Source: Candidatus Bipolaricaulota bacterium (GTDB taxonomy: Bacteria; Bipolaricaulota; Bipolaricaulia; Bipolaricaulales; Bipolaricaulaceae). Taken from it: a stretch of DNA of 50,597 nt. Below are positions 7,919 to 50,597 of the stretch, piece after piece. The stretch lies in contig CALKES010000006.1 of assembly GCA_938084715.1 (NCBI GenBank), positions 1 through 50,597 on the forward strand, written 5' to 3'. Position 1 is the first letter of the stretch. Each line of letters opens with the position of its first letter. The notes under the pieces were generated by a model. The model saw only the letters and a list, made by a program, of their open reading frames with translations. It did no database searches and was not told the DNA's origin. A program made the position numbers and the translations under genes.

Positions 7919-7947
7919 AGTCTACCGGGGGGCCGTGGAGGCGGCAA
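7919..7947 (-). promoter_or_regulatory. sigma70-type promoter of the Cas4-like gene (leaderless)
   Basis: On the minus strand TTGCCG (7942-7947) and TAGACT (7919-7924) are separated by 17 bases, and the -10 box ends 9 bases before the ATG at 7909. No Shine-Dalgarno is present. The -10 overlaps the stop codon region of pus10 (7922-7924), so the gene has its own promoter inside the end of its neighbour. Confidence 0.55.
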
Positions 7948-9181
7948 TTGGGCCTCCCCAGGACCCGTCGAGCACGTCGAGGACGTCAAGCTCGGCGACC
8001 TTGGCCGGAACCCCGAGGAGCGCGGCCAGGTTGGGCTGGGTGGCTCCGCCGTCGCCGGAGACCAGTTCCTTCACGTACAGGCCCCCTTGGCAGAGGATCT
8101 CCACCTCGGCCTCGGTGGGAGAGACAAGGGCCCCCTTGGCCGCGTGAACGCGGCGGCGGCGGACGAGGTCGGCCCGGCGGTGCCGGACCCGCTCCGGGGT
8201 CCGCTGCTCGATCTCGCCGACGAGGGCCTCGAGTGCCCGCGCCAAGGCCTCCCCACTCACCGGTTCCCCGAACTCGACCCGGGCCCGGTACCGCTTGTCG
8301 GCGTGCTCCTCCTTCACCTGGGCCACGAGCTCCGGGGATCCCGGCCGGAGGTCGAGGATCTCCACCCTCCCCTCGGCCGCGCGGTGGATCTCCTCGGCCA
8401 CGGCCGCCAGGTCGATCCTCCGCCGCCGGGGCTCCTTCACCTCGACGACGAACGGCCTCCCCCGGCCGAGCATCCGGGCATCGATGTCCTCCCGCCCCGC
8501 CCCGTGGAGGTGGCCTCCCGTCCCACCGGTGGCGGAAAGGAAGGCCGGAAGGACGAGCTCCTCGACCGAGAGGGGGTACTGTTTCCCCGTCCCCCCGCAC
8601 GAGGCGCAGCCCCGGCCGCGGCAGCTCCGGCACGGCCAGTGGGTCTGGGGGATCCCCCGGACGAGCTTCCGGTACCGGCCGTAGAAGAAGGTCGGGGCCA
8701 CCACGAGCTCGATCCGACCCGTCTCGAGGTCCACGGTGAACTGGACATCGGGGCGGGCGAAGTCCACCGTGGCCTCCCGGCCCCGCTCGGCGAGGGCCCG
8801 CTCAAAGGCCTGCCCCAGCGCCCGGTTCAGGTCGCGCCGCAGGGGCTCGGCCCACGGGGAGGGAAACCGCTCGTCGAGGAACTCCTCCACCGCCTCCTGG
8901 CGGGGGGTGAGGTGGACCCCAAAGAGGAACGTGCGGAACTCCCGGTCCGCCACGAGGTCCGCCGCCTCCCGGGCCCGCGCGGCGAGGGAGTCCCACACCC
9001 CCCGGCACACCCAGCAACGCTCGGGGGCGACTGGCGCACCACCTTGGGCCGCCGCGCGAAGCGTTCGCCCCCGTTCGACGTTGGAGAGGCCCGGGCCGAG
9101 GCCGGCGAACCGGCGCCCCAGGCACCGGTCGCAGATCGGCCCAGCCCGGACGAGCTCCGCGGCGAGCGTAATGGGGTCCAC
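7922..9181 (-). CDS. pus10: tRNA pseudouridine synthase Pus10 (archaeal/eukaryotic type)
   Basis: 419 residues. The N-terminal zinc-binding THUMP-containing part has CDRCLGRRFAGLGPGLSNVE (~17-36) and CWVC (~56). The catalytic part has WPCRSCRGRGCASCGGTGKQ, the Pus10 double CxxC insertion, then GAGREDIDARMLGRGRPFV with the catalytic Asp and VVEVKEPRRRRIDL. The C-terminus (YVKELVSGDGGATQPNLAAL) is the conserved closing motif. The enzyme makes pseudouridine 54/55 in the tRNA T-arm. It is typical of archaea and eukaryotes; bacteria normally use TruB for U55. The GTG start lies 6 bases after a TATAAT, so the mRNA should be leaderless. Family call is firm; its role beside or instead of TruB is unknown. 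Confidence 0.9.
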   Translation of the reverse strand: MDPITLAAELVRAGPICDRCLGRRFAGLGPGLSNVERGRTLRAAAQGGAPVAPERCWVCRGVWDSLAARAREAADLVADREFRTFLFGVHLTPRQEAVEEFLDERFPSPWAEPLRRDLNRALGQAFERALAERGREATVDFARPDVQFTVDLETGRIELVVAPTFFYGRYRKLVRGIPQTHWPCRSCRGRGCASCGGTGKQYPLSVEELVLPAFLSATGGTGGHLHGAGREDIDARMLGRGRPFVVEVKEPRRRRIDLAAVAEEIHRAAEGRVEILDLRPGSPELVAQVKEEHADKRYRARVEFGEPVSGEALARALEALVGEIEQRTPERVRHRRADLVRRRRVHAAKGALVSPTEAEVEILCQGGLYVKELVSGDGGATQPNLAALLGVPAKVAELDVLDVLDGSWGGPIAASTAPR

Positions 9182-35840: not shown

Positions 35841-35846
35841 TACAAT
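35841..35846 (+). promoter_or_regulatory. -10 box of the subtilase operon (leaderless)
   Basis: TACAAT on the plus strand ends 7 bases before the GTG at 35854. It also overlaps an in-frame ATG at 35845, which therefore cannot be the start if this box is used. Confidence 0.55.
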
Positions 35847-35853
35847 GGCGTTC

Positions 35854-37980
35854 GTGGCCTGGTTCCGCTACCTGCTTCTCGTCTTGCTTTTCTCCTTCGC
35901 CGCCCTTGGAGGCCCGGAGAAGCTCGACCCTGTCCTAAGGCTCCTCCTGGCCATCCCCGACGCGGCGGATCCTGCGGCTCCTTTCCGCGCGGCGACGGGG
36001 CTCGTGGCCCTTCAGGCGCCCGCGGCGGGAGACGAGCCGGAGGTTCGGGTGTTCCTCCTCACCCGGGACCCTGAGGGGGCCCGATCCGTCGCGGGCTTTC
36101 GGACCCACCAGGTCGTGGGAACCCTCGCCACCGGGTCCGTCCTCCTCCGGGATCTCCTCTCCCTCTCCGAGGATCCCCAGGTCCTGTACGTCCAGGCCAG
36201 CCGGCCCGTCTACCCCGCGCTCGACGTCTCCGTCCCGGAGACCGGGGCCCCGGCCCTGTGGTACGGGAGCCCCCGGGCCACGGGGCAGGGGGTGATCGTC
36301 GGGATCGTGGACACGGGGGTTGATCCCCTCCACCGCGACTTCAGGGTCGACCGCACGGGGGACGGGTTCGAGGAGGGCTCGCGGATCCTGTGGCTGTGGG
36401 ACCAGGGCGGGGCCACGCCCGCCGGGTTCCCCCCCTGGTGGGGGGACGGGGCGACCGAGGGCCGCTACGGCCGGGTCTACTCCCAGGGAGAGCTCGAAGG
36501 CGCGATCGCTTCCGGGTCTTCCCCCGTGGGGGACCCCCAGGGCCACGGGACCCATGTGGCGGCCATCGCCGCCGGGGATGGATCGGCCTCCCCCCAGGCC
36601 CTCCGGGGGGTCGCCCCCGAGGCCGACCTCGTGGTGGTGAAGACCACGTTCTACGAGGACGCCGTCGTGGATGGGGTGCGGTTCGTGTTCGAGGCCGCCC
36701 AGGCGCTGGGCAAGCCTGCGGTCGTGAACCTGTCCCTCGGCGGCCACGGGGGGTCCCACGACGGGAACTCCCTCTTTGAGCGGATGATCGACGCCCTGGT
36801 CGACCGCCCCGGGCGGGTGGTCGTCGCCGCGGCGGGGAACGAGGGGAACCGGAGGATCCACGTGGGGGGCGACGTCCGAACCCCCACCACCTGGCACCTG
36901 GAACTCGAGAAGGGGACGGTCTCCGTCCGGTTCTGGCACAGCGGGACGGCGACGTTCTCCGTCTCGGTGCGGACGCCGGGAGGGGAAGAAGTGACCGTCC
37001 CTCCCGGAGGCCAGCGTTGGGCGGTCACCTCCTCGGGCGGCGTGTGGATCGACAACACCTCCCTCCCCGACCCCCTGACCCTCGACCGCTCGATCTACCT
37101 CGCCCTCACGGATGCCGTCCCGGGGACGGCGTGGGCGATCACGGTGAGCCCAATCCTGGGAGGAGCCCGGGTCGACGGGTGGGTGGAGCAGGCGTCCGCG
37201 GCCCAGTTCCGGGAGGGAGACACGAACTTCACGATCAGCGAGCCGGGGAACGCCCGAAAGGTGATCACCGTGGGGGCGTACATCACGAAGACCCGCTGGA
37301 CGTCCGTGACCGGAGAGCAGCGGGCGGAGGGGGAGGTCGGGGCCCTCGCCTCGTTCTCCTCCCGGGGGCCGACCCGGGACGGGCGGATCAAGCCCGACCT
37401 CGCCGCGCCGGGGGCGTGGATCGCCTCAGCCCGATCCCGCCTGGCGAGCCCCGCGGGCTGGCTCACCCTCCCGGGTGGGGAGTACTCGATGCTCCTTGGG
37501 ACGAGCATGGCCGCGCCCCACGTCGCGGGGGCCGCAGCCCTCCTCCTCTCCCTCCGCCCGGACCTCACCTGGTCGGAGGTGAGAGACGCCCTGACCAAGG
37601 GGGCACGGGTCGATTCGGCCGTCGGGGGGGCCCCCAACACCCTGTGGGGGGCAGGGAAACTCGACGTGTCCTGGGCGGCGACCTTGATCGCTTCGCCGTC
37701 GCCCCAGCCCAGGCCCGTCCTCACCCTCCTGGCCAACCCCGTGAGCCGTGAGGCCCGCTTCCGCTACAGCCTCCCCCCCGAGGCGCGGTGGGCGACACTC
37801 CAGGTCTACGACCTCTCCGGCCGGCTCCTCTATAGCCAACCCCTCGCCCCGCCCGCGGGGGACGCCCGCTGGCCCCTCACGACGACCGACGGCCTGCCGG
37901 TGGGAAGCGGCCTGTACCTCGCCGTCCTCGTCACCGACCGGGGGGCGTCGGAGGTCGTCCGGGTGGTGGTCCAGCGATGA
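35854..37980 (+). CDS. secreted S8 subtilase with C-terminal Por/FlgD-like sorting domain
   Basis: 708 residues from GTG at 35854. Signal peptide FRYLLLVLLFSFAALGG at the start, then a ~110-residue propeptide-like region. The triad is visible: Asp in IVGIVDTGVDPLHRDF (~152), His in GHGTHVAAIAAGDG (~232) and Ser in LLGTSMAAPHVAGAAALLLS (~550). About 300 residues separate His and Ser, including a beta-rich insert (VSVRFWHSGTATFSVSVRTP) as in CspA-type subtilases. The last ~85 residues form a beta domain, LTLLANPVSREARFRYSLPP, LQVYDLSGRLLYSQPL, VGSGLYLAVLVTDRG, ending VVVQR, related to the C-termini of two other proteins in the island. It overlaps the next gene (a PorV-like barrel) by 4 bases. 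Location: outside the outer membrane (inference). Confidence 0.9.
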   Translation: MAWFRYLLLVLLFSFAALGGPEKLDPVLRLLLAIPDAADPAAPFRAATGLVALQAPAAGDEPEVRVFLLTRDPEGARSVAGFRTHQVVGTLATGSVLLRDLLSLSEDPQVLYVQASRPVYPALDVSVPETGAPALWYGSPRATGQGVIVGIVDTGVDPLHRDFRVDRTGDGFEEGSRILWLWDQGGATPAGFPPWWGDGATEGRYGRVYSQGELEGAIASGSSPVGDPQGHGTHVAAIAAGDGSASPQALRGVAPEADLVVVKTTFYEDAVVDGVRFVFEAAQALGKPAVVNLSLGGHGGSHDGNSLFERMIDALVDRPGRVVVAAAGNEGNRRIHVGGDVRTPTTWHLELEKGTVSVRFWHSGTATFSVSVRTPGGEEVTVPPGGQRWAVTSSGGVWIDNTSLPDPLTLDRSIYLALTDAVPGTAWAITVSPILGGARVDGWVEQASAAQFREGDTNFTISEPGNARKVITVGAYITKTRWTSVTGEQRAEGEVGALASFSSRGPTRDGRIKPDLAAPGAWIASARSRLASPAGWLTLPGGEYSMLLGTSMAAPHVAGAAALLLSLRPDLTWSEVRDALTKGARVDSAVGGAPNTLWGAGKLDVSWAATLIASPSPQPRPVLTLLANPVSREARFRYSLPPEARWATLQVYDLSGRLLYSQPLAPPAGDARWPLTTTDGLPVGSGLYLAVLVTDRGASEVVRVVVQR

Positions 37981-38768
37981 GGGTTCTGGTAGCCCTTCTC
38001 CTCTTCGGGGCCACCGCCCAGGGCTTCGTGGGCGGGGACCTCCTGTTCGACCTCGGGCGCGGGGCGCGGACCCTGGGGATGGCGGGCGCGGGGATCGCTC
38101 TTCCCTCCCCGGACGCCCTGTTCCTCAACCCCGCCGGGCTCCCGGGGGTCGAGGGGTTCCACGTCCAATCCACGTACGGAGACCTGTTTGGGGCCGCGAC
38201 CCTCGGGGCGCTGGGGGTGACGGCCCCCGGAGTGGGCTTCGCGGGGATCCTCCTCGACGCGGGGGTCCTCGGGCCGGGGCTCTCCTTCCGGACGGCGGGG
38301 GCCCTCGTTGGGGCGGGCGTGCGGCTTGGCCCCGTGGCGATCGGGGCCCGGGCGCGCCTCCTCCGCCCGCTCCTCCCTGTCCCCGGCGTGGGCGGGGCGC
38401 TCGACCTGGGCCTCCTTCTCCAAGGCCCAGTCCAGATCGGCCTCGTGGTGAGGAACGCCCTCGCCCGGTCCCCGGTCGCATCCGAGTCCTGGCCTGTGGA
38501 GGGGGCCGTGGGCGTGGCCCTCTCCCTGGCGTGGGGATCGTGGAGGATCACCGTAGCCGCTGACGTCTGGGGAATCGGCTCCCTCCTCTCCGCGGCTGTT
38601 GGGGCCGAGGTGGGGATCCCAGGGCTTTTCGTCCGAGCCGGGTACGGATCCAGTGGGCTCACCCTCGGGGGGAGGGTCGCCTGGCGGGCGTTCACCCTGG
38701 ACTGGGCTGTCCTCCTTCCCCCCGTCCTTCCCCCGGCGTTCCGCGTATCCTTGGACCTGAGGTTGTGA
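37977..38768 (+). CDS. PorV/PorQ-like outer membrane beta-barrel 1
   Basis: 263 residues. Signal peptide RVLVALLLFGATAQGF. The N-terminal motif GARTLGMAGAGIALPSPDAL then FLNPAGLPG is the hallmark of the FadL-related PorV/PorQ group (GxRxxGMGGAxxA...xNPAGL). The remainder alternates Gly/Ala/hydrophobic residues in short amphipathic strands and ends FRVSLDLRL, as in outer membrane barrels. In Bacteroidota PorV shuttles type IX cargo from the translocon to the surface. Here the gene overlaps the subtilase by ATGA and is followed after 1 base by the giant barrel, so the three form one operon. Confidence 0.78.
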   Translation: MRVLVALLLFGATAQGFVGGDLLFDLGRGARTLGMAGAGIALPSPDALFLNPAGLPGVEGFHVQSTYGDLFGAATLGALGVTAPGVGFAGILLDAGVLGPGLSFRTAGALVGAGVRLGPVAIGARARLLRPLLPVPGVGGALDLGLLLQGPVQIGLVVRNALARSPVASESWPVEGAVGVALSLAWGSWRITVAADVWGIGSLLSAAVGAEVGIPGLFVRAGYGSSGLTLGGRVAWRAFTLDWAVLLPPVLPPAFRVSLDLRL

Positions 38769-38769
38769 G

Positions 38770-41700
38770 ATGAGACGAACGATCCTTGCGCTCCTTGCCG
38801 TGGGCTGGGCCGCCTGGGCCCAGCCGACCCCGAGCTTCACGGTGACCGTGGCCGGGGAGAAGACGTGGACGATCACCCTGGGGTTCGGGGCAACCGAGCT
38901 CCTCTCCGGGGAAGGGCTCGCTCCGGGGCAGCCTGCCCTCACCCAGACCCTCCGGGCGGAGATCGAGGGGACGGCCCTCGGGTTCGTCACCGTCCGGGCG
39001 AGCTTCAACGACCAGCTCGGGCCGGGGTTCCAGGACTTCCTTGTCACCGCCGCCCAAGGGCCGTGGAAGGGAGAGCTTGGGCGGTTCACGGTCGGGGCCG
39101 AGGGGGAAGGCCTCGGGGTGTACAACAAGCGGGTGCTGGGGGCCCGGGTCAGCTTTGCCGGGGAGACCGTTCAGGCCGGCGCCCTTGTCACCCGCCTCGA
39201 GGGGATCTCCGAGTCGCGGACGTTCCGGGGGGAACGGGGGTTCGCCGAGATGGAGTTCGCCCGGGAGGACCCGGACCGGCCGTGGGAGCCTGCCCCCTAC
39301 CTCCGCTCTGTGGAGGGGCTCGCCTACTGGCCCCTGCGCCTCCCCTTCGTGGAGGGGCTGACCCAGGTCACGCTGCGCCTGGACAAGACTGGCGCCCTGG
39401 GGACGTTCCTCGCCGACTGGGGTCTTGACTACCTCCTGCCTGACCTCGCGGCCGACGCCGCGGTCGCCTCCGGGGAGTACCTCGTCCTGCGGGACAATGG
39501 GGACGCCCTCGCCCTGCGCCTCTCCCCAGCTTCCCTCGCCCGGAGGGTCGTCCAGGAAGCGATCGAGGCCCACAACCGCCGCCTGGGCCTGGCGGGGGGG
39601 AGCCGCCGAACTTATCCCTTCGTCGGGGGGAGCGAGCTGGAGGGACGGTTCTTGACTGGGCTCACGGCCTACCTCGCCGTGGCGGTGGACGAGGACCGCT
39701 ACCCGTTTGGGGATCTTCGGCGCCGCCGGTACCTCCTCCTCGGGGAGAAGGACGTGATCGAGGGGTCGGTGGAGGTCTCCCTGCGGCTCCCGGGGGAGAC
39801 CGAGTTCCGGCCCTCTTCGGAGCTTCCCGAGTACCGGTGGTCCCTCCTCCCCGGACCGGGGGTCCTCGTGATCGCTTTTCCCGACTCCTTCTTCTCCGGT
39901 GGGGCCGTGCGGTTGAGCTACGCCTACCGCCGGGAGGGGGCGACGTTTTCCCTTGGGCTCTCTGTCGTCCCGGGCTCGGAGCGGGTGTACCTGGACAACC
40001 GACCCCTCGTCCGGGGCTCGGACTACAGCCTCGACTACGAGTCCGGGCTCCTCCTCCTCTTCACCCCGCTCGGCGAGGAGGACACCCTCCGGGTGGACTT
40101 CGAACGCCAGCGGGGAGGACTGGGCGGGGCGACGGAGTACGAGCGGAACCTGTTCGGCCTGTCCCTCACCTTCCCCGATCTCGACGGGCTTCGGCTCGGG
40201 ATCTGGCGGGCGATGGACTTCGGGACCCCGGGGCCCACGACGCGGACGATGCCCAACGCCCACACCGTGGCTGCCCTCTCCGCCGCAGGCCAGGTAGGGG
40301 AATGGCGGTACAGCCTCTCCCTTGGGGGCTCGGAGAACGTCTTTCCTGCCGACGACAACGCCCGCATCCCGACCGCCAACCGGATCCACGCCATCGCCGT
40401 CTTCTCCGCCCCCGACGGGACCTACGTCGTCTTCGCCCATGGAAACGGGCTCACGGCCTACAAGGACGGGGCTTTCTCCTCCTATAGCTCTGCCCACGGG
40501 CTCGGGGGCCGGGCGGCCTACGCCCTCCTCCCCCTCCCGGGTCAGCTCCTCGTGGGAACGGACTCCGGTCTAACCGTGGTTCGCCTCGCCGACCCTTCCC
40601 CTCTCGACCGGATACGGAGCTGGGTTCGGCTTGGCTCCTCCGACGGCGTCCCCGGAGCCCGGGTCGTGGCCCTGGCAGAGGGTGAAGGCCGGGTCTACCT
40701 CGCCACGGAGAAGTCCCTTGCCGCGTTTGCCCCGGCCGCCGCCGAGAGGCCCGCCTCCTGGGAGAAGATAGCCATCCCCGAGGGCGCCCTGGAACCAACG
40801 GCCCTCCTCGCCGCCGGGGAGGCGCTGTACTTGGGAACGGAAAACGGCCTGTTCGTCCGCCAGGGTGGGCTTTGGACGCGGGTCGTTGAGGTTGGGGGGA
40901 GGGTCCACGCCCTTGCCCTCCGGGGGGAGGAGGTCCTGGTGGGGACGGAGGAGGGGATCCGGATCCTCCGGGGTGGAACGGGAGCCGGGTGGGTGGTCTT
41001 GGGCCGACCCGTCTACGGGATGGTTGTCCACGACGGAGTCCTCTGGTACGCGGCGGGAGACGGCCTGTGGCGGGAGGGGGAGGCGGGGCCCACCCTTCGG
41101 GGCCGGGTGGTGGCCGTGGGGGCGGGTGGGGGGGCCGTCTGGGCCGGGGAGGAGGCCGACGAGGCGTTCTCCCTTCCGCTTTGGCGGGTGGGGGAGACGG
41201 TGGAGCGCTTCCCTCAGACCAGGACAAAGATCGACGGCCGGGACCTCGCCCAGTTCCGGGACATCCCGGCCTCGGAGCACACCCGGTACGGCCTCACCGG
41301 AAACCTCCTCCTCCAGCGCTCGGCGGGGGGATGGGACCTCGACCTCCGGGTTGCCAGCCGCCTCCCCGGCTACGAGGAGATCGGCCGAGCCGGTCGATCG
41401 GACGCGCACGGGATCTCCCTTTCCGCCCGGACGGTCCAGGGGCAGGCGTCCGTCGACCTCCGCGGTTCCTGGACGGTCACGGATCTCGCGGTGAGGCCGA
41501 CGGGCAAGCTGAGCGCGGGGCTCGACTGGCGGAGGACGGGATCCCCTTCCCTTTCCCTCTCCCTGAACCCCGAGTTCCTGGGGGACGGCCTCGTCCCCCG
41601 GACCGGGCTGAACCTCGGCTGGCGGGGGGGCGCCTCGGACAAGGGCCCCACCTGGTTCTGGAGCCTCACCGGAAGCGGATCCCTCCGCACCCCCGGCCTC

Positions 41701-42615
41701 TCGGCCTCGGGGCAGCTTGGGGCAAGCGGTTCCCTCCAACTCGCCCCCGGGTGGACCCTCTCCGGGAGCTGGGCCCGCCCTTTCCAGTCCGAGCGGGCCC
41801 GCGGCGAGGAGACGATCAGCGCCACCCTCAAGGGGACGGGGACGGTCCAGGGAGCGTCCTGGTCGATCGCCGGGACGGAGACCCTCCGCCACCGGCTCGA
41901 GACCGGGCGGTGGACCGCGGAACACGCGCTTCTGGGAGAGCTCCGGCCCCGGCCCCTCACGGTGAGCGGGACCCAGCTCGCCCCGCAGCTCTCGGGCTCC
42001 TGGTCCCTGACCCCATCCGATTGGCGGTGGAGCGGGCGCCTCGCCGCGGACCTCTCCAGAAGCCCGGTCCTGTTCCGGCTGAGCTTGAACCTGGGCGGGG
42101 CGTTCCAGCCGGCTACCGAGCGGGGGGAGCGGACGCTCGGGTACTCCGTGACCTGGGAGTACGGAGGCCTTCTTGGCCTCCGGCCCACCGTCCGTTGGGA
42201 CCGGTCGTGGACGACCCTCTCCCACCCCCGGTACGGGGAGCGGACGACGGAGAAGGAGGAACTCTCCCTGCGCCTCGCGGCCGAGGCCCCGGATCGGGGC
42301 TGGCGGGACTCCCTGAGCGTGGTCTGGAAACCGGGGGAGGGGAGGCTATCCCTGACCAACCGGTTCAGCCTGGCCCGGGAGGCGTGGACCCTCACCGCCG
42401 ACACCACGGCCACGGCGGAGGGAGAGACCGTTGAAGTGAAGACGATGGCCCAGGTCGGGGTCCCCCTGGACACGGTGCTCCAGGCGCTGGGGGGCCGCTC
42501 CGTCGGAGACGCGTGGACGGTCAACCTCGCCCTCGGCCACGCCCTCAAAGCCCGGCCCGAGGCCGGGCTCCAGGGCGCCCTGTGGCTGGGCGTAACGCTC
42601 GCTGTTCGCTTCTAG
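38770..42615 (+). CDS. giant outer membrane beta-barrel with internal beta-propeller
   Basis: 1,281 residues. Signal peptide RRTILALLAVGWAAWAQ. Residues ~20-520 are beta-rich with repeated amphipathic strands; VYLDNRPLVRGSDYSLDYES then GLLLLFTPLGEEDTLRVDFE (~405-445) recalls the DYxxDYxxGxI...LxVxFE modules seen in SprA/Sov-type proteins. Residues ~535-800 are a propeller: GTYVVFAHGNGLTAYKDGAF, LLVGTDSGLTVVRLADPSP, LYLGTENGLFVRQGGLW, EVLVGTEEGIRILRGGTG, about one blade per 45-55 residues. Residues ~830-1281 are continuous barrel strands (GLTGNLLLQRSAGGWDLDLR ... LGVTLAVRF) ending in Phe. No known family fits the whole. A translocon, an adhesin or a receptor are all possible; the operon with a PorV-like gene favours export or surface assembly. 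Confidence 0.7.
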   Translation: MRRTILALLAVGWAAWAQPTPSFTVTVAGEKTWTITLGFGATELLSGEGLAPGQPALTQTLRAEIEGTALGFVTVRASFNDQLGPGFQDFLVTAAQGPWKGELGRFTVGAEGEGLGVYNKRVLGARVSFAGETVQAGALVTRLEGISESRTFRGERGFAEMEFAREDPDRPWEPAPYLRSVEGLAYWPLRLPFVEGLTQVTLRLDKTGALGTFLADWGLDYLLPDLAADAAVASGEYLVLRDNGDALALRLSPASLARRVVQEAIEAHNRRLGLAGGSRRTYPFVGGSELEGRFLTGLTAYLAVAVDEDRYPFGDLRRRRYLLLGEKDVIEGSVEVSLRLPGETEFRPSSELPEYRWSLLPGPGVLVIAFPDSFFSGGAVRLSYAYRREGATFSLGLSVVPGSERVYLDNRPLVRGSDYSLDYESGLLLLFTPLGEEDTLRVDFERQRGGLGGATEYERNLFGLSLTFPDLDGLRLGIWRAMDFGTPGPTTRTMPNAHTVAALSAAGQVGEWRYSLSLGGSENVFPADDNARIPTANRIHAIAVFSAPDGTYVVFAHGNGLTAYKDGAFSSYSSAHGLGGRAAYALLPLPGQLLVGTDSGLTVVRLADPSPLDRIRSWVRLGSSDGVPGARVVALAEGEGRVYLATEKSLAAFAPAAAERPASWEKIAIPEGALEPTALLAAGEALYLGTENGLFVRQGGLWTRVVEVGGRVHALALRGEEVLVGTEEGIRILRGGTGAGWVVLGRPVYGMVVHDGVLWYAAGDGLWREGEAGPTLRGRVVAVGAGGGAVWAGEEADEAFSLPLWRVGETVERFPQTRTKIDGRDLAQFRDIPASEHTRYGLTGNLLLQRSAGGWDLDLRVASRLPGYEEIGRAGRSDAHGISLSARTVQGQASVDLRGSWTVTDLAVRPTGKLSAGLDWRRTGSPSLSLSLNPEFLGDGLVPRTGLNLGWRGGASDKGPTWFWSLTGSGSLRTPGLSASGQLGASGSLQLAPGWTLSGSWARPFQSERARGEETISATLKGTGTVQGASWSIAGTETLRHRLETGRWTAEHALLGELRPRPLTVSGTQLAPQLSGSWSLTPSDWRWSGRLAADLSRSPVLFRLSLNLGGAFQPATERGERTLGYSVTWEYGGLLGLRPTVRWDRSWTTLSHPRYGERTTEKEELSLRLAAEAPDRGWRDSLSVVWKPGEGRLSLTNRFSLAREAWTLTADTTATAEGETVEVKTMAQVGVPLDTVLQALGGRSVGDAWTVNLALGHALKARPEAGLQGALWLGVTLAVRF

Positions 42616-43460
42616 AACCGGACCCCGAACCCGAACCGGTGGGAGGATGAGAGGACGGGGTGGGTGAGGAGGGCGTAGTCGAGGACGAAGGACCCCCACC
42701 GAACGCCGAGGCCTACGGCCCAGCGGAGGCCCCCCTGGAGCCGGAGCCCGGCCCGGACCTCAAGGAGGTTCAGAAGCCCCCACCCGAGCCCGAAGGCGGT
42801 GTACTCCGAGGTCAGGTCGGCAGCGAGGAGGAACCCGAACGGGCTCACGAGGGCCGCCCCGACCCCGAAGTCAATCGACCACCCGTCGGGGGTGTCCCCG
42901 ACCCGCATCCCCAGGCCCAGGTCCCGGAGGGCGAGGCCGAACTGAAGCGCCCCGAAAGGCGTGTTCGTCCGCCCGAGGACCCCCACGTCCAGAGCGAACC
43001 CGCTCCCGGACTCGCCCCCGATCTGGACCCGGTTGAACTTGAGGTTGACTCCCCCCGCAGCCGGGAACGGGAAGACCCGGAACGGGGCGAGGTCGAACCC
43101 GAGGCCCAGGACGAGGGCCAGATGGGAGAAGGTGAGCGGATTCCCCTGTGGGTCGGTAATCCCCCCGACTCCGAGGTAGGCCACGCCTCCCCCGAGGTTG
43201 GGAAGGGCGCCGGCGATCCAGGTCACGGAGTAGAGCCCAAGGACGCTTGAGAGGCTGGAGTCGGCCCGCAGCCCCCGCGACCAGCCCAGGCCCGCCGGGT
43301 TGTAGAGGAGGGCGTCCGTTCCCTCGGCCAGGGCCAGGCCCGCCCCCCCGAACCCCATCGCCCGGACGGAGAGCCCCGCGTCGAACGGGTTCGGGAGCGA
43401 CTGGGCGACGGCCGCCCCCCCCGCGAGCGCTACCAGAACGAATACACCTATCCGTCGCAT
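42612..43460 (-). CDS. PorV/PorQ-like outer membrane beta-barrel 2
   Basis: 282 residues; ATG with GGAGGAGAC directly upstream, 9 bases after the PKD gene. Signal peptide RIGVFVLVALAGGAAVAQ. The motif VRAMGFGGAGLALAEGTDAL then LYNPAGLGWSRG matches barrel 1 and the PorV/PorQ/FadL group. Amphipathic strands continue to the end (HRFGFGVRF, terminal Phe). It is the downstream partner of the PKD protein gene and converges on the giant barrel gene with a 4-base overlap. Confidence 0.78.
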   Translation of the reverse strand: MRRIGVFVLVALAGGAAVAQSLPNPFDAGLSVRAMGFGGAGLALAEGTDALLYNPAGLGWSRGLRADSSLSSVLGLYSVTWIAGALPNLGGGVAYLGVGGITDPQGNPLTFSHLALVLGLGFDLAPFRVFPFPAAGGVNLKFNRVQIGGESGSGFALDVGVLGRTNTPFGALQFGLALRDLGLGMRVGDTPDGWSIDFGVGAALVSPFGFLLAADLTSEYTAFGLGWGLLNLLEVRAGLRLQGGLRWAVGLGVRWGSFVLDYALLTHPVLSSSHRFGFGVRF

Positions 43461-43469
43461 GTCTCCTCC

Positions 43470-46400
43470 CTACCGTACGACGAGGATCCTGCCGACCTCG
43501 GACCGCTCGGTCTTTCCGGCCACGGTGGCCGTGACGAGGTAGAAGTACAGACCATCGGCGATCCTCCGGCCGGCCTGGTCGGAGAGGTTCCAGGTGTACT
43601 GCCCACCCACGACATCCGCGGCGAGAACCGGCCGGCCGAGCATGTCGAAGATCTGGATCTTGACCGCGGTCGCCCCCTGGGGGAGGAAGACCTGGATCCG
43701 GGCCTGGGTCCGGGCCGGGTTGTCCAGGAGCTTGGTCCCGATGAGGGCCCCGCCCTTGGGCCGGACGTAGAGGGACAGGGTCCGGGGTTGGCTCCAGCCG
43801 CCGCGGGCGTTGCGGGCCCGGACGGTGACGGTGAACACGTTGCTCGCCGCGTAGGTGTGCTTGGCCGTCCCCGCAGTGGTGGTCCTCTTCGGGGTCCCAT
43901 CTCCGAAGTCCCACTCCCAGGTCGTCACCGGGTCGTCGGTTGGGGCCTGAACCGGGGCGGCGAACGTGACCTCAACCCCCACCTCCGGCACGGGCGGGAC
44001 CGCCGTCAGGCCCGTGACCGTGGGAACCACCCAAGGAGTGACCGTGACGTCGTGCGAGGCCAAACCCAGGCCGTTGGGGTGCGTCACCGTCAGGGTCACG
44101 GTGAACGTGCCCGCCTCCGCGTAGGTGTGGGTGACCTCACCCAGATTCGGTCCCTCCTGTCTGTTGCCATCCCCGAAGTCCCACGCGTAGGTGAGCCCGC
44201 CCCCCTGACCCGCCCCAGGGGGCAGTTCGACCTGGGCGATGAACTTCATCGGATCGCCCACCTTGGGGTTCTCCGGCTCCCAGCGGAAGTCCACGGTAAG
44301 CCACGTGACCTGAAGCCGGTGCTCCTTCGTCCCCGTGGCGGTGCCTTCGTCGATGACCGTGAGGCGGACGGTGAACGTTCCGCCCTTGCCGAAGGTGTGG
44401 GGCACGGAGGCAGGTCCCAGGGTGGTGACCGCCGGGGTGCCGTCCCCGAAGTCCCAGGAGAAGGTGGCCCGGGCGATGTCGCCGTCGGGGTCCTCAATCC
44501 CGCGGGCAGGGGTGAACGTCACCGCCTCGTTCCAGAGGGGCTTCTCCGGCTCCCAGGAGAAGTCGACCCCCGTGGGCGGGGCGTTCGTGACGTCCAGGAC
44601 CCAGGTCTTCTCCGCTTTGGCGCCGCCCTGGTCGGTGACGGTGAGCTTGACGGTGAACCGTCCTCCCTTCCGGTAGGTGTAGCGGACCGGGGCGGGCCCC
44701 ACCGTGAACTCCCGCTTGCCATCCCCAAAGTCCCAGTCGAACGTCGCGCTGCTGATCTTCCCATCGGGATCGTCAATCCCGCGGGCGGGGGTAAACGTGA
44801 CCTCGTCGCTCCACTTCGGCCGGGCAGGCTCCCAGGAAAAGTCGACCCCGGTCGGGGGGCGGTTGGTGATGGTCACCCGCTTCGTGGCCGCGGTGGAGGC
44901 CCCCCCCTCGTCGGTGACGGTGAGCGTTACGGTGAACTCACCACCTTTTCCGTACAGGTGACGAACCTCGGTGGGGCCGGTGGTGACGCGGGTTGTCCCG
45001 TCCCCAAGGTCCCACTCAAATCTAGCTGCGGCAATGTCTCCATCAGGGTCAACAATACCGCGGGCCGGGGTGAAGGTTACCTCGTCGCTCCAACCCGGGG
45101 CCGACGGAGTCACCGAGAACTGCACCCCTGTGGGAGGTCGGTTTTCGGGAACATCGATCGTGGCGGCAGCCTCGGCCTTGAGCCCGCCCTCATCCGTCAC
45201 GGTCAGCTTGACCGTGAACCGGCCCGCCTTTCCATAGCGATGGGTGATGATCTCTGGCCCTGTTCGGATCACTTTCGTCCCGTCGCCGAGGTCCCACTCG
45301 AACTTGGCTCTCGCTACATCGCCGTCGGAATCTGTGCTTCCTGACGGATCAAAGGTGAACGTGGTGTTCCATCGGATGTCCCGGGTCGGGGAGTAGGTGA
45401 ACCGGGCGAGGGGGGGCTCGTTAACCTTGGTGATGAACTCCGCCGGTCCCACCAGCACCCCGGTCGGGTATGTGGTAGCCCCTTCCGTGTGCCATACCGC
45501 GGTCTCGAGCCTCAACCGGCGCCCGGTGGCCGCTGTGGGGGCAACGGTGACGAGGATGATCAGTTCAACCGCCGTGTCATCGACCACCCGATTGTTTGTT
45601 CCGGTACTGATTCGCACGCCGGCCTGGCTGAACCCGCTTGTCTCCGTCGTCGCCCCCAGCAGGGCGTTGTCGCTTGCCCGGCGGACTTCGATCCGCGTCA
45701 CGTGGTGATCCGCCAGCGGGCTTGTCGTGGGATTGTTGCGGATGACCAGCGACTCCAGCAGGACGTCGTAGATGTCGGGATCGTTATCCTCCAGGCGCAA
45801 CCGCTGCATCACGAACTGCTCCCCCAGGTACACCGGGCGTTGGCGCACGTCCAACACTTCCGCCTTCTCCAGCCCCCCCCTCCCTGCCGGTCCGGTGGTG
45901 AGTGTAGCATTTCCGTAGGCAACGCGGTCGAAGGTGACCGCTCCCTCGCTGTGCCACACCGCGGTGGCCAGTTTGATCTGCCGACCGTCAGGAATCGGCT
46001 GCGTGGGGGTGGCGGCCTTGAGCGTCACCCAAACCTCGACCGCAAGCTCGGTGTCATCGCGAACTGTCCTGTTCGCAGTGGCGGGAATCCTCACCCCCCC
46101 TGAGCTCAAGCCGGTGACGTTGGTCCCCTGACCGATCACGGCACCGTCGCTGGCACGGCGAACCTCGATCTTGGCGACGTGAGAGTCGGCCAGACGGCGG
46201 TCTGCGGGAGCTACGTTGCTGACAACGAAAGACTCGATGGTTACGTCGTACGGGTCCTCATCGTCGTCCCGCAGCGTTATCCGCTGGGCCAGGAACGTCT
46301 GCCCGGCGTACACGTTGGTATCGGCCAGGGGAACGTTGTCCACCCGATCCAGCCCTCCCGGGGCTCCCACGACAAACACCTGGGCCTCCGATGCCCGTAC

Positions 46401-47372
46401 CCTTTCCCTTGCCTGTTGAACGGGCTCGGGTGGGGCAACCCGTGGTGTGTACAAGACTTGGGTCTCCAGCCACAACCTATGGCCTGGGACCGGGTTCGCC
46501 CTCAAGGTAATCCACACCTCGACCTTCACTTGGCCGAACGCGGGGACGCGGTTGTTCGATCCGGTCGTGACCACTGTTCCGGTGGTTGTCAGGTTCGCGA
46601 GCGGCGCCGCGCTGGTCTGCTGGCCAAGCACCGCGCCATCCCCCGCCCGCCGTACTTCGACCGCCGCCACGTGCCCCCCGCCCAGGGGGGTGGCACCGGC
46701 AATCTGGTCGGCAATATTTCGCACCACCAGCTGATCGACGGTGACCTCCACGGCGTAGGTGTTGACCATGATCAGGCGTTGGGCGAGGAACTTCTGACCC
46801 GGGAAGACGGTCCCGTCCTCCACGTCCGGGTCGTTGCGCGTGGCAAACAGGCTTACCCGAAACGTTTGGTCGGGGTTCGTTTCGGCCCAACCTGTGATCC
46901 CGGTATCTCGGCCGATGGAGTAGCCTGCCCGGGAGGCGATTCGGACCGTGGCCCCTTGGGGCACCGTGGCCCGAAGGCCCAGGTAGATGACCAGCTCCAC
47001 CGCTCCCCCGCGGGGGATGACGTTGTTCCCTGTGCACGCAACCCGGACCCCGTCGCCCGTCTCAAACCGGCCGAGGGTTCCGGGGCTCGTCTCCGCTCCC
47101 ACAACGACACCGGAGTCAGCGCGAACAACATCGACTCGGTTGAGAGAGGTACCTTCAAGATCTCCAGCAAGTCTTCTCACGTCAATCCAGTCTAGGGTCA
47201 GCGGCTCTGCCGCGACGTTGGTGACCACCACCCTCTGGGCGATGAAGTACTCCCCAGGGGCCACCGCGGCACCGTCGGCTCCCCGCGCCTGGTTGTGGTA
47301 CCCTGGAGCTTGGCCCAAAGCCACAACGGGGATCAACGTCAAAACCACTAGCAATGTGGACAGGCCTCTCAT
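43470..47372 (-). CDS. secreted PKD-repeat protein with four novel N-terminal repeats and sorting domain
   Basis: 1,300 residues from ATG at 47372 (AGGAGGG upstream); the open frame before it has no signal peptide. Residues 1-20 (RGLSTLLVVLTLIPVVALGQ) form the signal peptide. Residues ~40-650 hold four ~155-residue repeats beginning near 42, 194, 359 and 519, each with FxAQRxxL, then HVxxIEVRRAxDgAvlG, then NNRV and a late LETAVWHTEG. Residues ~656-1205 are six PKD domains (each with WDFGDG or WDLGDG and a TxTVTLTVTD strand). The last ~80 residues, LDNPARTQARIQVFLPQG, IQIFDMLGRPVLAADVV, IADGLYFYLVTATVAGK, ILVVR, are the sorting-like domain shared in the island. It is likely an extracellular fibre, adhesin or S-layer-type protein. 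The downstream gene encodes PorV-like barrel 2. Confidence 0.85.
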   Translation of the reverse strand: MRGLSTLLVVLTLIPVVALGQAPGYHNQARGADGAAVAPGEYFIAQRVVVTNVAAEPLTLDWIDVRRLAGDLEGTSLNRVDVVRADSGVVVGAETSPGTLGRFETGDGVRVACTGNNVIPRGGAVELVIYLGLRATVPQGATVRIASRAGYSIGRDTGITGWAETNPDQTFRVSLFATRNDPDVEDGTVFPGQKFLAQRLIMVNTYAVEVTVDQLVVRNIADQIAGATPLGGGHVAAVEVRRAGDGAVLGQQTSAAPLANLTTTGTVVTTGSNNRVPAFGQVKVEVWITLRANPVPGHRLWLETQVLYTPRVAPPEPVQQARERVRASEAQVFVVGAPGGLDRVDNVPLADTNVYAGQTFLAQRITLRDDDEDPYDVTIESFVVSNVAPADRRLADSHVAKIEVRRASDGAVIGQGTNVTGLSSGGVRIPATANRTVRDDTELAVEVWVTLKAATPTQPIPDGRQIKLATAVWHSEGAVTFDRVAYGNATLTTGPAGRGGLEKAEVLDVRQRPVYLGEQFVMQRLRLEDNDPDIYDVLLESLVIRNNPTTSPLADHHVTRIEVRRASDNALLGATTETSGFSQAGVRISTGTNNRVVDDTAVELIILVTVAPTAATGRRLRLETAVWHTEGATTYPTGVLVGPAEFITKVNEPPLARFTYSPTRDIRWNTTFTFDPSGSTDSDGDVARAKFEWDLGDGTKVIRTGPEIITHRYGKAGRFTVKLTVTDEGGLKAEAAATIDVPENRPPTGVQFSVTPSAPGWSDEVTFTPARGIVDPDGDIAAARFEWDLGDGTTRVTTGPTEVRHLYGKGGEFTVTLTVTDEGGASTAATKRVTITNRPPTGVDFSWEPARPKWSDEVTFTPARGIDDPDGKISSATFDWDFGDGKREFTVGPAPVRYTYRKGGRFTVKLTVTDQGGAKAEKTWVLDVTNAPPTGVDFSWEPEKPLWNEAVTFTPARGIEDPDGDIARATFSWDFGDGTPAVTTLGPASVPHTFGKGGTFTVRLTVIDEGTATGTKEHRLQVTWLTVDFRWEPENPKVGDPMKFIAQVELPPGAGQGGGLTYAWDFGDGNRQEGPNLGEVTHTYAEAGTFTVTLTVTHPNGLGLASHDVTVTPWVVPTVTGLTAVPPVPEVGVEVTFAAPVQAPTDDPVTTWEWDFGDGTPKRTTTAGTAKHTYAASNVFTVTVRARNARGGWSQPRTLSLYVRPKGGALIGTKLLDNPARTQARIQVFLPQGATAVKIQIFDMLGRPVLAADVVGGQYTWNLSDQAGRRIADGLYFYLVTATVAGKTERSEVGRILVVR

Positions 47373-47662
47373 CACAAACCCTCCTCCACTTCCGCGTACC
47401 CCATACCGTTGCGGGCGTGCCATACCTGGGCTGCCGCGCCGTCCCCGACGGTGAAACGTGCCCCACTTAGGGATAAAAGGCCGCTTGCACGCACCGGGCG
47501 GGGTCTGGGGCCGAGCAAGTTGCCAGTCCTCAGAGAACCGCACGCGGCCACTGTACGGGTCCCGTCGCCCCCGGCCCAACGGTCAGTGTCTCCCCCGTCA
47601 CGGAACTGCGCGGGAGGAAGAGGGGACAGATGTCCCCCCACCTCACCGGTGGCCCGAACCCC
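47373..47662. other. 290-base intergenic region upstream of the PKD gene
   Basis: I see no gene that I can support. An 89-codon minus frame covers most of it but has no family match, no ribosome site and no codon signal. The region holds a stem-loop at 47622-47637 and the PKD gene's ribosome site; no clear promoter boxes were found. Confidence 0.5.
47622..47637 (-). terminator. stem-loop after the small barrel gene
   Basis: GGGGACA-GA-TGTCCCC, a 7-base-pair stem 25 bases beyond the small barrel gene stop. In minus direction it is followed by TCTTCCTCCC, the pyrimidine run used instead of poly-U at other minus-strand terminators here. Confidence 0.5.
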
Positions 47663-48268
47663 TCACCGCCAACGAAGGGAAAGGGAAAGAAAAAGCCCCG
47701 AGAAGTCGGCGGCAGGGAGGCCCCGGGTCTCAATGGGGTTCCCCCGCCCGTCCCGGACGCGGGGGACCGGGGCGTAGCGGAAGCCCCCTCCAGCCGTGAG
47801 GGAAACAGGCCCGGCCCCGACCAGACGCCACGTCACCGCTCCACCCACGAGGATGCCCAGCCCCCCGCCCTCCACGACCCCCCCAAGGGCGGCCCACCCC
47901 GCCCCGGCGTAGAGGGAGAGGCCAACCGGGAGGCCCGGGAGGAGCTCCGGAAGCCGAAGTCCCGCCGAGAGGCTCGCAAGCGTTGCCCTCTGCTCCCGCC
48001 GCTCCCGACCGAGGATCGCCCCCAAGGAGGAGAGCCACCGCATCCCGAGGCCAACCCAGGGCCACGGCCAGACCTCAAGCCCCCCCTCCCACGCTAGGCG
48101 GAGCGGCGCAAGCGGGGCCCCGGCCTCCCCGGCCAGGAACTCCAGGCGCCGGTTGAGGAACTCCATGCCCACGGGTCCGATCCCGACCGAGACGCCCACG
48201 CCCGCCCCAGCGACAGGCCCGCTCAGGAGAACGGCCAAGAGGACAACCGCTATCCCTTTCTTCGCCAT
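47663..48268 (-). CDS. small secreted outer membrane beta-barrel
   Basis: 201 residues; ATG behind GGAGGTGATC. Signal peptide AKKGIAVVLLAVLLSGPVAG. The rest alternates in amphipathic strands rich in Gly, Leu, Trp and Val (WEGGLEVWPWPWVGLGMRWL, VGLSLYAGAGWAALGGVV, VSLTAGGGFRYAPVP) and ends FLSLSLRWR. That fits an 8- to 10-stranded outer membrane barrel. No family motif is recognised, and the PorV NPAGL signature is missing. It follows the third sorting-domain gene in the same direction, like the two PorV-like genes follow theirs. Confidence 0.65.
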   Translation of the reverse strand: MAKKGIAVVLLAVLLSGPVAGAGVGVSVGIGPVGMEFLNRRLEFLAGEAGAPLAPLRLAWEGGLEVWPWPWVGLGMRWLSSLGAILGRERREQRATLASLSAGLRLPELLPGLPVGLSLYAGAGWAALGGVVEGGGLGILVGGAVTWRLVGAGPVSLTAGGGFRYAPVPRVRDGRGNPIETRGLPAADFSGLFLSLSLRWR

Positions 48269-48307
48269 GATCACCTCCGACCCCGCACCCCTTGAGGGGG
48301 AAGAAGA

Positions 48308-48336
48308 GGGGGTGGCCGGCCCCGCCGGCCACCCCC
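48308..48336 (-). terminator. strong stem-loop terminator after the jelly-roll protein gene
   Basis: GGGGGTGGCCGG and CCGGCCACCCCC pair over 12 bases with a 5-base loop, 17 bases past the stop codon at 48354. In the minus direction TCTTCTTCCCCC follows. It separates this gene from the small barrel gene. Confidence 0.75.
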
Positions 48337-48353
48337 GAACACTTCGAACCTCC

Positions 48354-50597
48354 CTACCGGTAGATCGCGAGCTTCTGGAGCTCCGAGGAGATCCAGGTTC
48401 CCGCGACCTTGGCGTGGACGCGGTAGAGGTACACCCCGTTGGCGAGGTACCGGCCCGCGAGGTCGTCCGTGTGCCAGACGAGCTCGCCTCCGGCGACCTC
48501 CGCGGTGTAGACGAGGCGACCGGAGAGGTCGTAGATCTCGACCTTGAGGGCCTCGGGGTCCGCCCCGCGCACCGCGAAGGTGGTGGTGTGGACATCTCGG
48601 ATCGGGTTGGGATAGTTGAAGAACGAAATCCCCATCCCGAGACGCTCCAGCGAAGCCGGCGCCAGGGGAAGGCACGGAGACGGATCGCCTGATTCAGCAG
48701 CGGTTACCTGAATGTTGTCCACGATCCAGCCAACGAACTTGTTGTTGTGCTTATCCACCGAGTCAAAGACGAACTTGATCTGCATCGTCTTTGCTCCGGT
48801 GGGAACTGCGATCGATTTGGACCACTCCGTCCAGGCCCTTTCCGAAAGGGATCTGGAATCCATGTACCAAATCGTGCACCAACCTCCGCTACCGAACCTC
48901 ACCTGGAGGTAGGTCCGATCGAATGCACCGTCATAGGACTCAACCTCCCGCCAGAACCAGAAGCGGACGGTCACGTACTTGGCACCCGAGAGCGAGAACG
49001 GTTTTGAGGTCAGCTCACCCTTTGTAGTGCTTCCAGTGTTGTAGTTGTACCGAACAGCGGGCGGCTGTCCTCCGTAGGCCGTGCCCGTCACTTCAGCCCG
49101 GCCGTAGTACGCAGCGGACTCAGCCACCGGAATCCCGCCCTCAGCCGCAGCGGGAAGGAGATCCTGCCCGTTGTAGATCACCGTGTTCGTACACTGCCAG
49201 AGGCCGGTGGGGGTCTCCCATTTCGCCTCGCTGAACGGGCCGGTGTCGAAGTTCTCCATGAACAGGGCCTGCGAGGCGGCAACCCGGAGGAGACACCGCT
49301 CCTTCTCGTCCTCGGCCAGGGTGGCATCCCTGACCTTGATCGTGGGGTAGAACTCGCCACTGGCGGTGGGCGTCCCCGAGATCACGCCGGTCGTCGGGTC
49401 GACCGAAAGCCCGGGAGGAAGCCCCGTGACCTCCCACTGGTACGGTGGGGTCCCCCCGAACGCCTGGAGGGTAGTGGTGTAGGGCATGCCCTTCACCCCC
49501 TCGGGGAGCGGGCAGCCGGTGGTGATGGAGAGCGCGGGCTCGACAATGCGCACCTCGACCTCATCGATCACCCAACCCGTGAACGCGTTGTTCGTGGCGT
49601 CGACCGAGTCAAATCCGAACCGGACCCACATCCGCGTTGCCCCGGCGGGGATCCTGTCGTTCGAGATCGCCACCACCCTCTGCCACGTCCTCTCCGACGG
49701 GTTCCGGGAGTCCTTGTACCAGATCCGCGTCCAGTTTCGATTGTCGAAGGAGATCTCGACGTAGGTCTGGTCGAAGGCGCCTTTGTCAAACTCTTCCACC
49801 CCTCGCCAATGGCTGAAGCTTACTCCAACGTGCTTCCCGACGTCTACGAGCTGCAGCGGGATCGCCGGCGAGGTCAGGAACCCCGAGGTCCGCGCAGGCG
49901 GGGCCGGCGCCATCGGGTAGACGTAAGTGTAGGTTGGAACGGCTGGGGCGGGCGTGTTGTACGGGCTCAAACCGTAGTACATTGCCCAGTTGGTCCCCGC
50001 GGGCGGGGGCGGCGGCGGGGGATTTGTAGCAGCCAGCACGATGTCTGCGCCATCCACCAGAACCACGTGCGTCCCGTGCCAGAGCCCGGTTGTCGTCCAC
50101 CCCCCTGCGGCAAACGCCGCCCCAGTGACCCAGTTGATTGCGTGGCGCACCGGCCCGGCCCCGATAGCGGGGAGGATCGTCAGGTCAAGCCGCTTCGAGT
50201 CCTGCCCACCGCTCTCGTCCTTGAGGATGAACCCCAGGGTCCAGGTTCCGGCTTGGGTCGGGGTCCCGCGGATCCGTCCCTGGGCCCGGTCGAACTCCAG
50301 GCCCGGTGGGAGAACGTCGTAGCCGCGCTCGAGCTCCCACACCAAGCGGGGATTGACGCCGCCGGGCGCCGGTGTAGCCGCAAGCGTGAAATCGTAGGCC
50401 ACCCGCTCTGTTCCGTTCGGCAACGCCAGCGTGGTGATCGTCGGCGGCTGGCCAACCCAGAGGTCGTCCACGAGCCAGCCAAGGAAGTCATTGTGTTTGG
50501 CGTCCCGGGAGTCGAACTCGAAGATGACCTGCATCCAAACTGCACCAAGTGGGGGGGCGAACCGGTCTGAGATCACCTGCTCCCACCCCGTGGACGA
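48354..50597 (-). CDS. surface protein with jelly-roll and Ig-like repeats and sorting domain (5' truncated)
   Basis: At least 747 residues; the frame stays open to the window edge, so the N-terminus and signal peptide are missing. Three copies of a MAM/jelly-roll-like module can be seen, each ending in a motif such as VIFEFDSRDAKHNDFLGWLV, VRFGFDSVDATNNAFTGWVI and IKFVFDSVDKHNNKFVGWIV, with W(Y)KDSR upstream in the two complete ones. Between them are He_PIG-type Ig domains (LPPGLEFDRAQGRIRGTPTQ and LPPGLSVDPTTGVISGTPTA). The C-terminus ISFFNYPNPIRDVHTTTF, VEIYDLSGRLVYTAEVAGG, GRYLANGVYLYRVHAK, LAIYR is the clearest match in the window to type IX (Por) sorting domains, including the YPNP motif. 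Probably a surface-bound carbohydrate-binding or adhesive protein. Confidence 0.85.
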   Translation of the reverse strand, partial: SSTGWEQVISDRFAPPLGAVWMQVIFEFDSRDAKHNDFLGWLVDDLWVGQPPTITTLALPNGTERVAYDFTLAATPAPGGVNPRLVWELERGYDVLPPGLEFDRAQGRIRGTPTQAGTWTLGFILKDESGGQDSKRLDLTILPAIGAGPVRHAINWVTGAAFAAGGWTTTGLWHGTHVVLVDGADIVLAATNPPPPPPPAGTNWAMYYGLSPYNTPAPAVPTYTYVYPMAPAPPARTSGFLTSPAIPLQLVDVGKHVGVSFSHWRGVEEFDKGAFDQTYVEISFDNRNWTRIWYKDSRNPSERTWQRVVAISNDRIPAGATRMWVRFGFDSVDATNNAFTGWVIDEVEVRIVEPALSITTGCPLPEGVKGMPYTTTLQAFGGTPPYQWEVTGLPPGLSVDPTTGVISGTPTASGEFYPTIKVRDATLAEDEKERCLLRVAASQALFMENFDTGPFSEAKWETPTGLWQCTNTVIYNGQDLLPAAAEGGIPVAESAAYYGRAEVTGTAYGGQPPAVRYNYNTGSTTKGELTSKPFSLSGAKYVTVRFWFWREVESYDGAFDRTYLQVRFGSGGWCTIWYMDSRSLSERAWTEWSKSIAVPTGAKTMQIKFVFDSVDKHNNKFVGWIVDNIQVTAAESGDPSPCLPLAPASLERLGMGISFFNYPNPIRDVHTTTFAVRGADPEALKVEIYDLSGRLVYTAEVAGGELVWHTDDLAGRYLANGVYLYRVHAKVAGTWISSELQKLAIYR

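Follow-up and report, generated by a model that had tools for sequence, protein, structure and literature searches.

The window, a stretch of 50,597 bases that makes up the whole of contig C6 in a 1.38 Mb genome (96% complete), probably carries core genes for outer-membrane export of a type IX-like kind, in which a compact SprA-like channel and PorV carriers would export proteins bearing C-terminal tails. The genome belongs to Candidatus Bipolaricaulota, the deep-branching phylum formerly known as Acetothermia or OP1. A sequence-only reading of the window had proposed that a Por-type export system, divergent or simplified, might exist beyond the phyla known for it, and the present data support that proposal through the association of tails with PorV-family barrels, a SprA-like translocon, and PorM, PorL and full-length PorU going undetected. 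The same reading had seen no Por core genes in view; this was overturned, as the gene at 38770-42615 (+) is SprA-like by both profile and predicted fold.

Profiles for SprA-like, PorV, tail, GldM, GldL and PorU proteins were searched against 100 genomes of the phylum, and those for LptD, the MotA/TolQ/ExbB family and BamA against 60, with control genomes alongside. Most of the phylum genomes were metagenome-assembled, and the searches for type IX components were confined to those just named. Elsewhere in the window, positions 7922-9181 (-) encode a pseudouridine synthase of Pus10 type (E 1.5e-60) whose THUMP domain is archaeal-type (E 6e-14); the Pus10 family is otherwise chiefly known in archaea and eukaryotes.

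The core operon and its SprA-like protein

Three consecutive genes on the forward strand form the operon. The first (35845..37980) encodes a subtilase (S8; Peptidase_S8 E 9e-43) with a C-terminal sorting domain at approximately 37735-37974 that scores over the TIGR04183 cut-off. The second (37977..38768) encodes b1, assigned as the core PorV-like carrier barrel from the PorV_fam matches of its orthologues, its AlphaFold2 (AF2) model and its operon position. The third (38770..42615), which begins right after the b1 stop and lies between b1 and a further barrel gene, b2, encodes a compact SprA/Sov-like translocon of 1281 residues, recognized from TIGR04189 matches in its relatives, its predicted fold and its distribution. 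Sufficient flanking sequence was available at 30 loci, and 29 of them kept the order tailed subtilase, PorV-like barrel and SprA-like gene, all on the same strand; a b1 orthologue lay immediately upstream of the SprA-like gene in 33 of the 34 loci with sequence directly upstream. The exception, L064, is in a genome with several SprA-like copies and is without the usual upstream subtilase and b1. The subtilase stop overlaps the b1 start (ATGA), a junction repeated in several relatives.

The subtilase was at first read as cargo, an assignment that was dropped because its position in the operon is fixed. In Porphyromonas gingivalis, porU and porV adjoin, 75 bp apart, and PorV is the proposed anchor of the tail-bearing protease PorU (PMC5445135). 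Here as well, a tail-bearing protease is encoded beside a PorV-type barrel, and its catalytic Asp/His/Asn/Ser residues were invariant wherever a copy covered them. By its gene position and architecture, the subtilase is probably a PorU analogue belonging to the machinery, with no homology to PorU.

In the genome scan, the window translocon gave a short match to TIGR04189 (SprA/Sov; E 1.4e-5), and the domain map places its SprA-matching stretch at 39955-40065. An NCBIfam scan found TIGR04189 in 32 of 33 relatives (best E 2.5e-8), with matches to other families being inconsistent. As these scores were approximately 20 to 30 bits against a cut-off of 200 and covered some 70 residues, sequence alone was insufficient to call the protein SprA. 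A sequence search of the PDB with the SprA-like profile returned no SprA and matched the propeller only (BT4663, 3ott); structure prediction was therefore needed.

An AF2 model was built from 33 Bipolaricaulota sequences, the first being that of the relative at L061, which is 45% identical to the window translocon and was represented by 1200 of its approximately 1232 mature residues. The model (pLDDT 84.4, pTM 0.52) opens with 8 to 9 barrel strands and a mixed plug region; a further 4 strands and a beta-propeller precede 23 long strands, amounting by our count to about 36 barrel strands, with approximately 30 terminal residues, the last strand or so, missing. SprA itself is a 36-stranded barrel (PMC7463736). 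Among 350,542 PDB chains, the four best fold matches were all SprA (8gl6, 1.5e-17; 8gl8, 2.0e-17; 6h3i, 2.5e-15; 6h3j, 2.4e-11). The TM-scores by query were modest, at 0.36 to 0.38, and the alignments were heavily gapped, SprA having about double the length. LptD came next at 3.3e-8, an E-value roughly nine orders of magnitude weaker, and the Deinococcus SlpA barrel was among the further matches. An LptD identity for the large barrel was rejected, given this weaker fold match and the finding of PF04453 in 0 of 60 genomes.

The propeller corresponds to residues ~533-830 of the window protein (~40366-41259, +) and resembles those of two-component regulators (3ott; Reg_prop in 11 of 33 relatives). 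A weak match to the PorZ propeller was also seen (4 of 33 relatives, E 0.003), as though a PorZ-like part sat within the channel protein.

The SprA-like gene was present, mostly as a single copy, in 89 of 100 genomes, including 37 of the 38 of good quality. Contamination as its source was rejected, since 37 of 39 genera carry it, and a tblastn search of the translocon against plasmids found nothing. One genome encodes 15 sorting tails and more than one SprA-like copy, G031 (L043 and L064; contigs C81, C161 and C1). Two records titled Thermotoga (L052, DYGJ01000047.1) and Neomarinimicrobiota (L074, JAJRTG010000068.1) carry the Bipolaricaulota operon and are probably mislabelled bins. The Deinococcota controls Thermus composti and Deinobacterium chartae matched the SprA profile (Thermus, below cut-off), the sorting-tail profile or both; judged from these matches, compact SprA-like systems may extend beyond Bipolaricaulota.

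Sorting tails and PorV-family barrels

Besides the subtilase, two tailed genes are found in the window, both on the reverse strand and both encoding probable cargo. The gene at 43470..47372, its start placed at the ATG preceding the signal peptide, encodes a PKD-repeat surface protein (PKD E 3e-79) with a sorting domain at 43527-43721 scoring over the TIGR04183 cut-off. The gene at 48354..50597, whose 5' end lies beyond the contig edge, encodes a repeat/Ig surface protein (He_PIG E 5e-23); its sorting domain, at 48411-48614, has the top TIGR04183 score in the genome. The proposal that the three C-termini are sorting domains thus held, all three being of TIGR04183 type (type A) with genome-scan scores that exceed the curated cut-off, while tail matches to the Pfam families FlgD-Ig, CHU_C and Por_Secre_tail were all below cut-off. 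In total, eight genes of the genome carry TIGR04183-type tails. Across the phylum, tails were detected in 88 of 100 genomes and exceeded the TIGR04183 cut-off in 84. A terminal Arg was found in 82 of 87 unique tails, compared with 20% of ORFs, a background that includes spurious frames, and the Arg-ending tail was common to otherwise unrelated proteases and repeat proteins.

As had been noted from the sequence, a barrel gene comes after each of the three tailed genes in the same orientation. The PorV-like character noted for the first two of these barrels was borne out for b2 directly and for b1 through its orthologues. The b2 protein (42612..43460, -) scored 49 bits against PorV_fam (E 5e-13), where the cut-off is 90 bits, and probably serves the PKD protein as its dedicated carrier. 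The b1 match was weak by itself (E 3e-4). Of its 29 aligned orthologues, however, 22 matched PorV_fam and 4 matched the PorV equivalog model. For b3 (47663..48268, -), the small barrel-like product of the gene downstream of the third tailed gene, family and profile scans gave no match and no similarity to PorV; a relative is present at L064. The AF2 model of b1 (pLDDT 89) has 14 strands and an N-terminal plug. Its comparison with known structures did not single out PorV: the closest folds were FadL and simple porins (OmpG), and PorV was absent among the 50 matches listed. The fold search not being PorV-specific, the PorV identity of b1 rests on the profiles. PorV_fam barrels were detected in 89 of 100 genomes, scoring over cut-off in 6.

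The association of tails with barrels extended to the phylum. Among 150 tails listed, at least 50, from at least 41 genomes, had a same-strand PorV match within 700 nt downstream (median distance, 143 nt), whereas among the matches listed for these tails none preceded the tail gene or lay on the other strand. In Bipolaricaulaceae, the PKD-b2 pair beside the core operon was kept in 10 further loci. The idea of one barrel per cargo was correct in part, as a barrel gene comes next after four of the eight tailed genes of the genome and not after the other four; the subtilase, moreover, resembles machinery and not cargo. Contigs C27 and C11 (L012:1-5258 and L010:1-9300), whose ends share identical coding sequence, join into a second cluster in the order tailed protein, PorV, tailed beta-helix protein, tailed metalloprotease, TlpA-like protein, PorV and tailed subtilase. 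This arrangement indicates that tail-carrier pairing is frequent without being one-to-one. Type A tails in Bipolaricaulota appear to have dedicated carriers encoded beside them.

Missing components and competing explanations

Omp85/BamA was detected by profile in 55 of 60 genomes; hence, an outer membrane is very probable for Bipolaricaulota cells, and the searches were able to detect envelope genes. The envelope type of the phylum was previously uncertain, and Ca. Bipolaricaulis has been reported to lack LPS genes (PMC6092417). In agreement with that report, LptD (PF04453) was found in 0 of 60 genomes, the window genome included, with controls positive. No credible PorM/GldM was found in 100 genomes, the one profile match having an E value of 0.08. 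PorL/GldL was over cut-off in none of the 100, with weak, partial and scattered matches in seven and none in the window genome. Full-length PorU was likewise found in none of the 100; the matches obtained, all below cut-off, covered the PorU tail domain and, in a few genomes, fragments of the catalytic region. The MotA/TolQ/ExbB family was detected in 1 of 60 genomes and in 0 of 34 good ones, compared with 8 of 14 controls. The near-absence of these proton channels is in itself unusual for a diderm lineage.

The scan for a Por motor thus fits the earlier description of the system as simplified. A motor-less system is a strong lead and short of proof, as profiles may miss divergent members. In type IX secretion, the energy for ejection is supplied by the PorL/M motor. 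The energy-requiring step in Bacteroidota is ejection of the carrier-cargo complex from SprA (PMC12635249). As PorL/M, PorU and LPS export were not found here, the energy source (if one is needed) and the anchoring must differ.

Transport, the specificity of carriers for cargo and the role of the protease can be pictured as follows. Cargo would cross the inner membrane via Sec, and its C-terminal beta domain would be recognized at the SprA-like channel (38770-42615). A PorV-family carrier would dock at the channel wall and receive the cargo, and dedicated carriers, encoded right after their cargo, may hold it at the surface. The tailed subtilase would sit at the surface on the core carrier b1 and process some of the cargo, as PorU does on PorV. 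We speculate that carriers leave by diffusion or are swapped by competition, in which case no motor would be needed. On the most far-reaching reading, LPS-free diderms outside Bacteroidota would have a SprA-PorV translocon that runs with no proton-driven motor in the inner membrane, a subtilase replacing PorU and dedicated PorV-type carriers serving type A tails, and it would represent either an ancestral form, to which a gliding motor was added later in Bacteroidota, or a stripped-down one. This fuller account is plausible and is advanced tentatively.

It is unlikely, although conceivable, that a complete type IX system is present, with a motor and ring of PorL/M/K/N type that have diverged beyond the reach of the profiles. 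Both SprA and PorV score below their own curated cut-offs here, so other parts could do likewise, and of these motor and ring proteins the profiles covered PorL/GldL and PorM/GldM. The weak GldL matches in seven genomes also lean this way, but they are partial, scattered and below cut-off, nothing credible was obtained for GldM, even the broad MotA/TolQ/ExbB family is missing from 59 of 60 genomes, and the conserved operon contains no motor-like gene.

Less probable still is that these are unrelated envelope proteins, the big barrel serving in general or lipid transport, the small ones being porins of FadL type and the tails common Ig-like domains without a sorting function. Although b1 folds most like FadL and OmpG, FlgD-Ig weakly matches the tails, and LptD and SlpA also match the large model, the SprA match is far the stronger and LptD is absent from the phylum sample; three parts of type IX type share one operon phylum-wide, and the same Arg-ending tail is found on unrelated proteins. 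Direct export of each cargo by its own small barrel, in the manner of two-partner secretion and with the large barrel unrelated, would account for the adjacency of cargo and barrel genes but was rejected as highly improbable, because a 14-strand plugged barrel is small for such cargo, one tail family is used whichever barrel follows, and Flavobacterium cargo with dedicated neighbouring carriers still passes through SprA (PMC12618676).

Relation to known secretion systems

Published surveys confine type IX secretion to Bacteroidetes (PMC4793230, PMC5445135), and a search of the open-access literature found neither SprA nor this secretion type reported for Bipolaricaulota or Acetothermia. Two features of type IX systems were found here, namely type A C-terminal sorting domains on cargo (TIGR04183, in the genome and the phylum) and a PorV-family carrier (PorV_fam, b1 orthologues). 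The PorL/GldL-PorM/GldM motor, the PorU sortase and an LPS anchor of the P. gingivalis type were not, and the system is for that reason not filed as a type IX member; it would function as the SprA-PorV-tail portion of such systems does and is placed as a variant of the SprA-PorV kind. With it, the phylum would gain an export route and a surface proteome. Two questions become testable, the purpose of the motor and whether the translocon predates gliding, and the Bipolaricaulota case could reveal which parts are truly needed for such export. A half-size translocon is perhaps also easier to study than SprA.

The closest known counterpart is SprA/Sov-PorV of Flavobacterium johnsoniae and P. gingivalis (PDB 6h3i, 8gl6), which shares the giant barrel of approximately 36 strands with a plug region (here predicted), the PorV-family carrier and the type A tails. 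In contrast, the Bipolaricaulota translocon is about half as long, carries a propeller insert, shares one operon with carrier and subtilase, comes from another phylum and matches the profiles below their cut-offs, and PorL/M, full PorU and LptD were not detected. LptD and Deinococcus SlpA are likewise large outer-membrane barrels but much weaker fold matches than SprA. The subtilase-b1 pair recalls porU-porV (PG0026-PG0027), where a protease with its own tail is encoded directly before a PorV-type carrier; here, however, the fold is that of a subtilase (S8) and not of a gingipain-like cysteine protease, and there is no LPS for attachment. Finally, carrier genes directly downstream of cargo genes are known from the dedicated PorP/SprF carriers that serve type B cargo (PMC12618676). 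A single PorV handles all type A cargo in Flavobacterium, where dedicated carriers encoded next door are limited to type B tails (PMC12618676), whereas in Bipolaricaulota the paired tails are of type A (TIGR04183) and the carriers belong to the PorV family.
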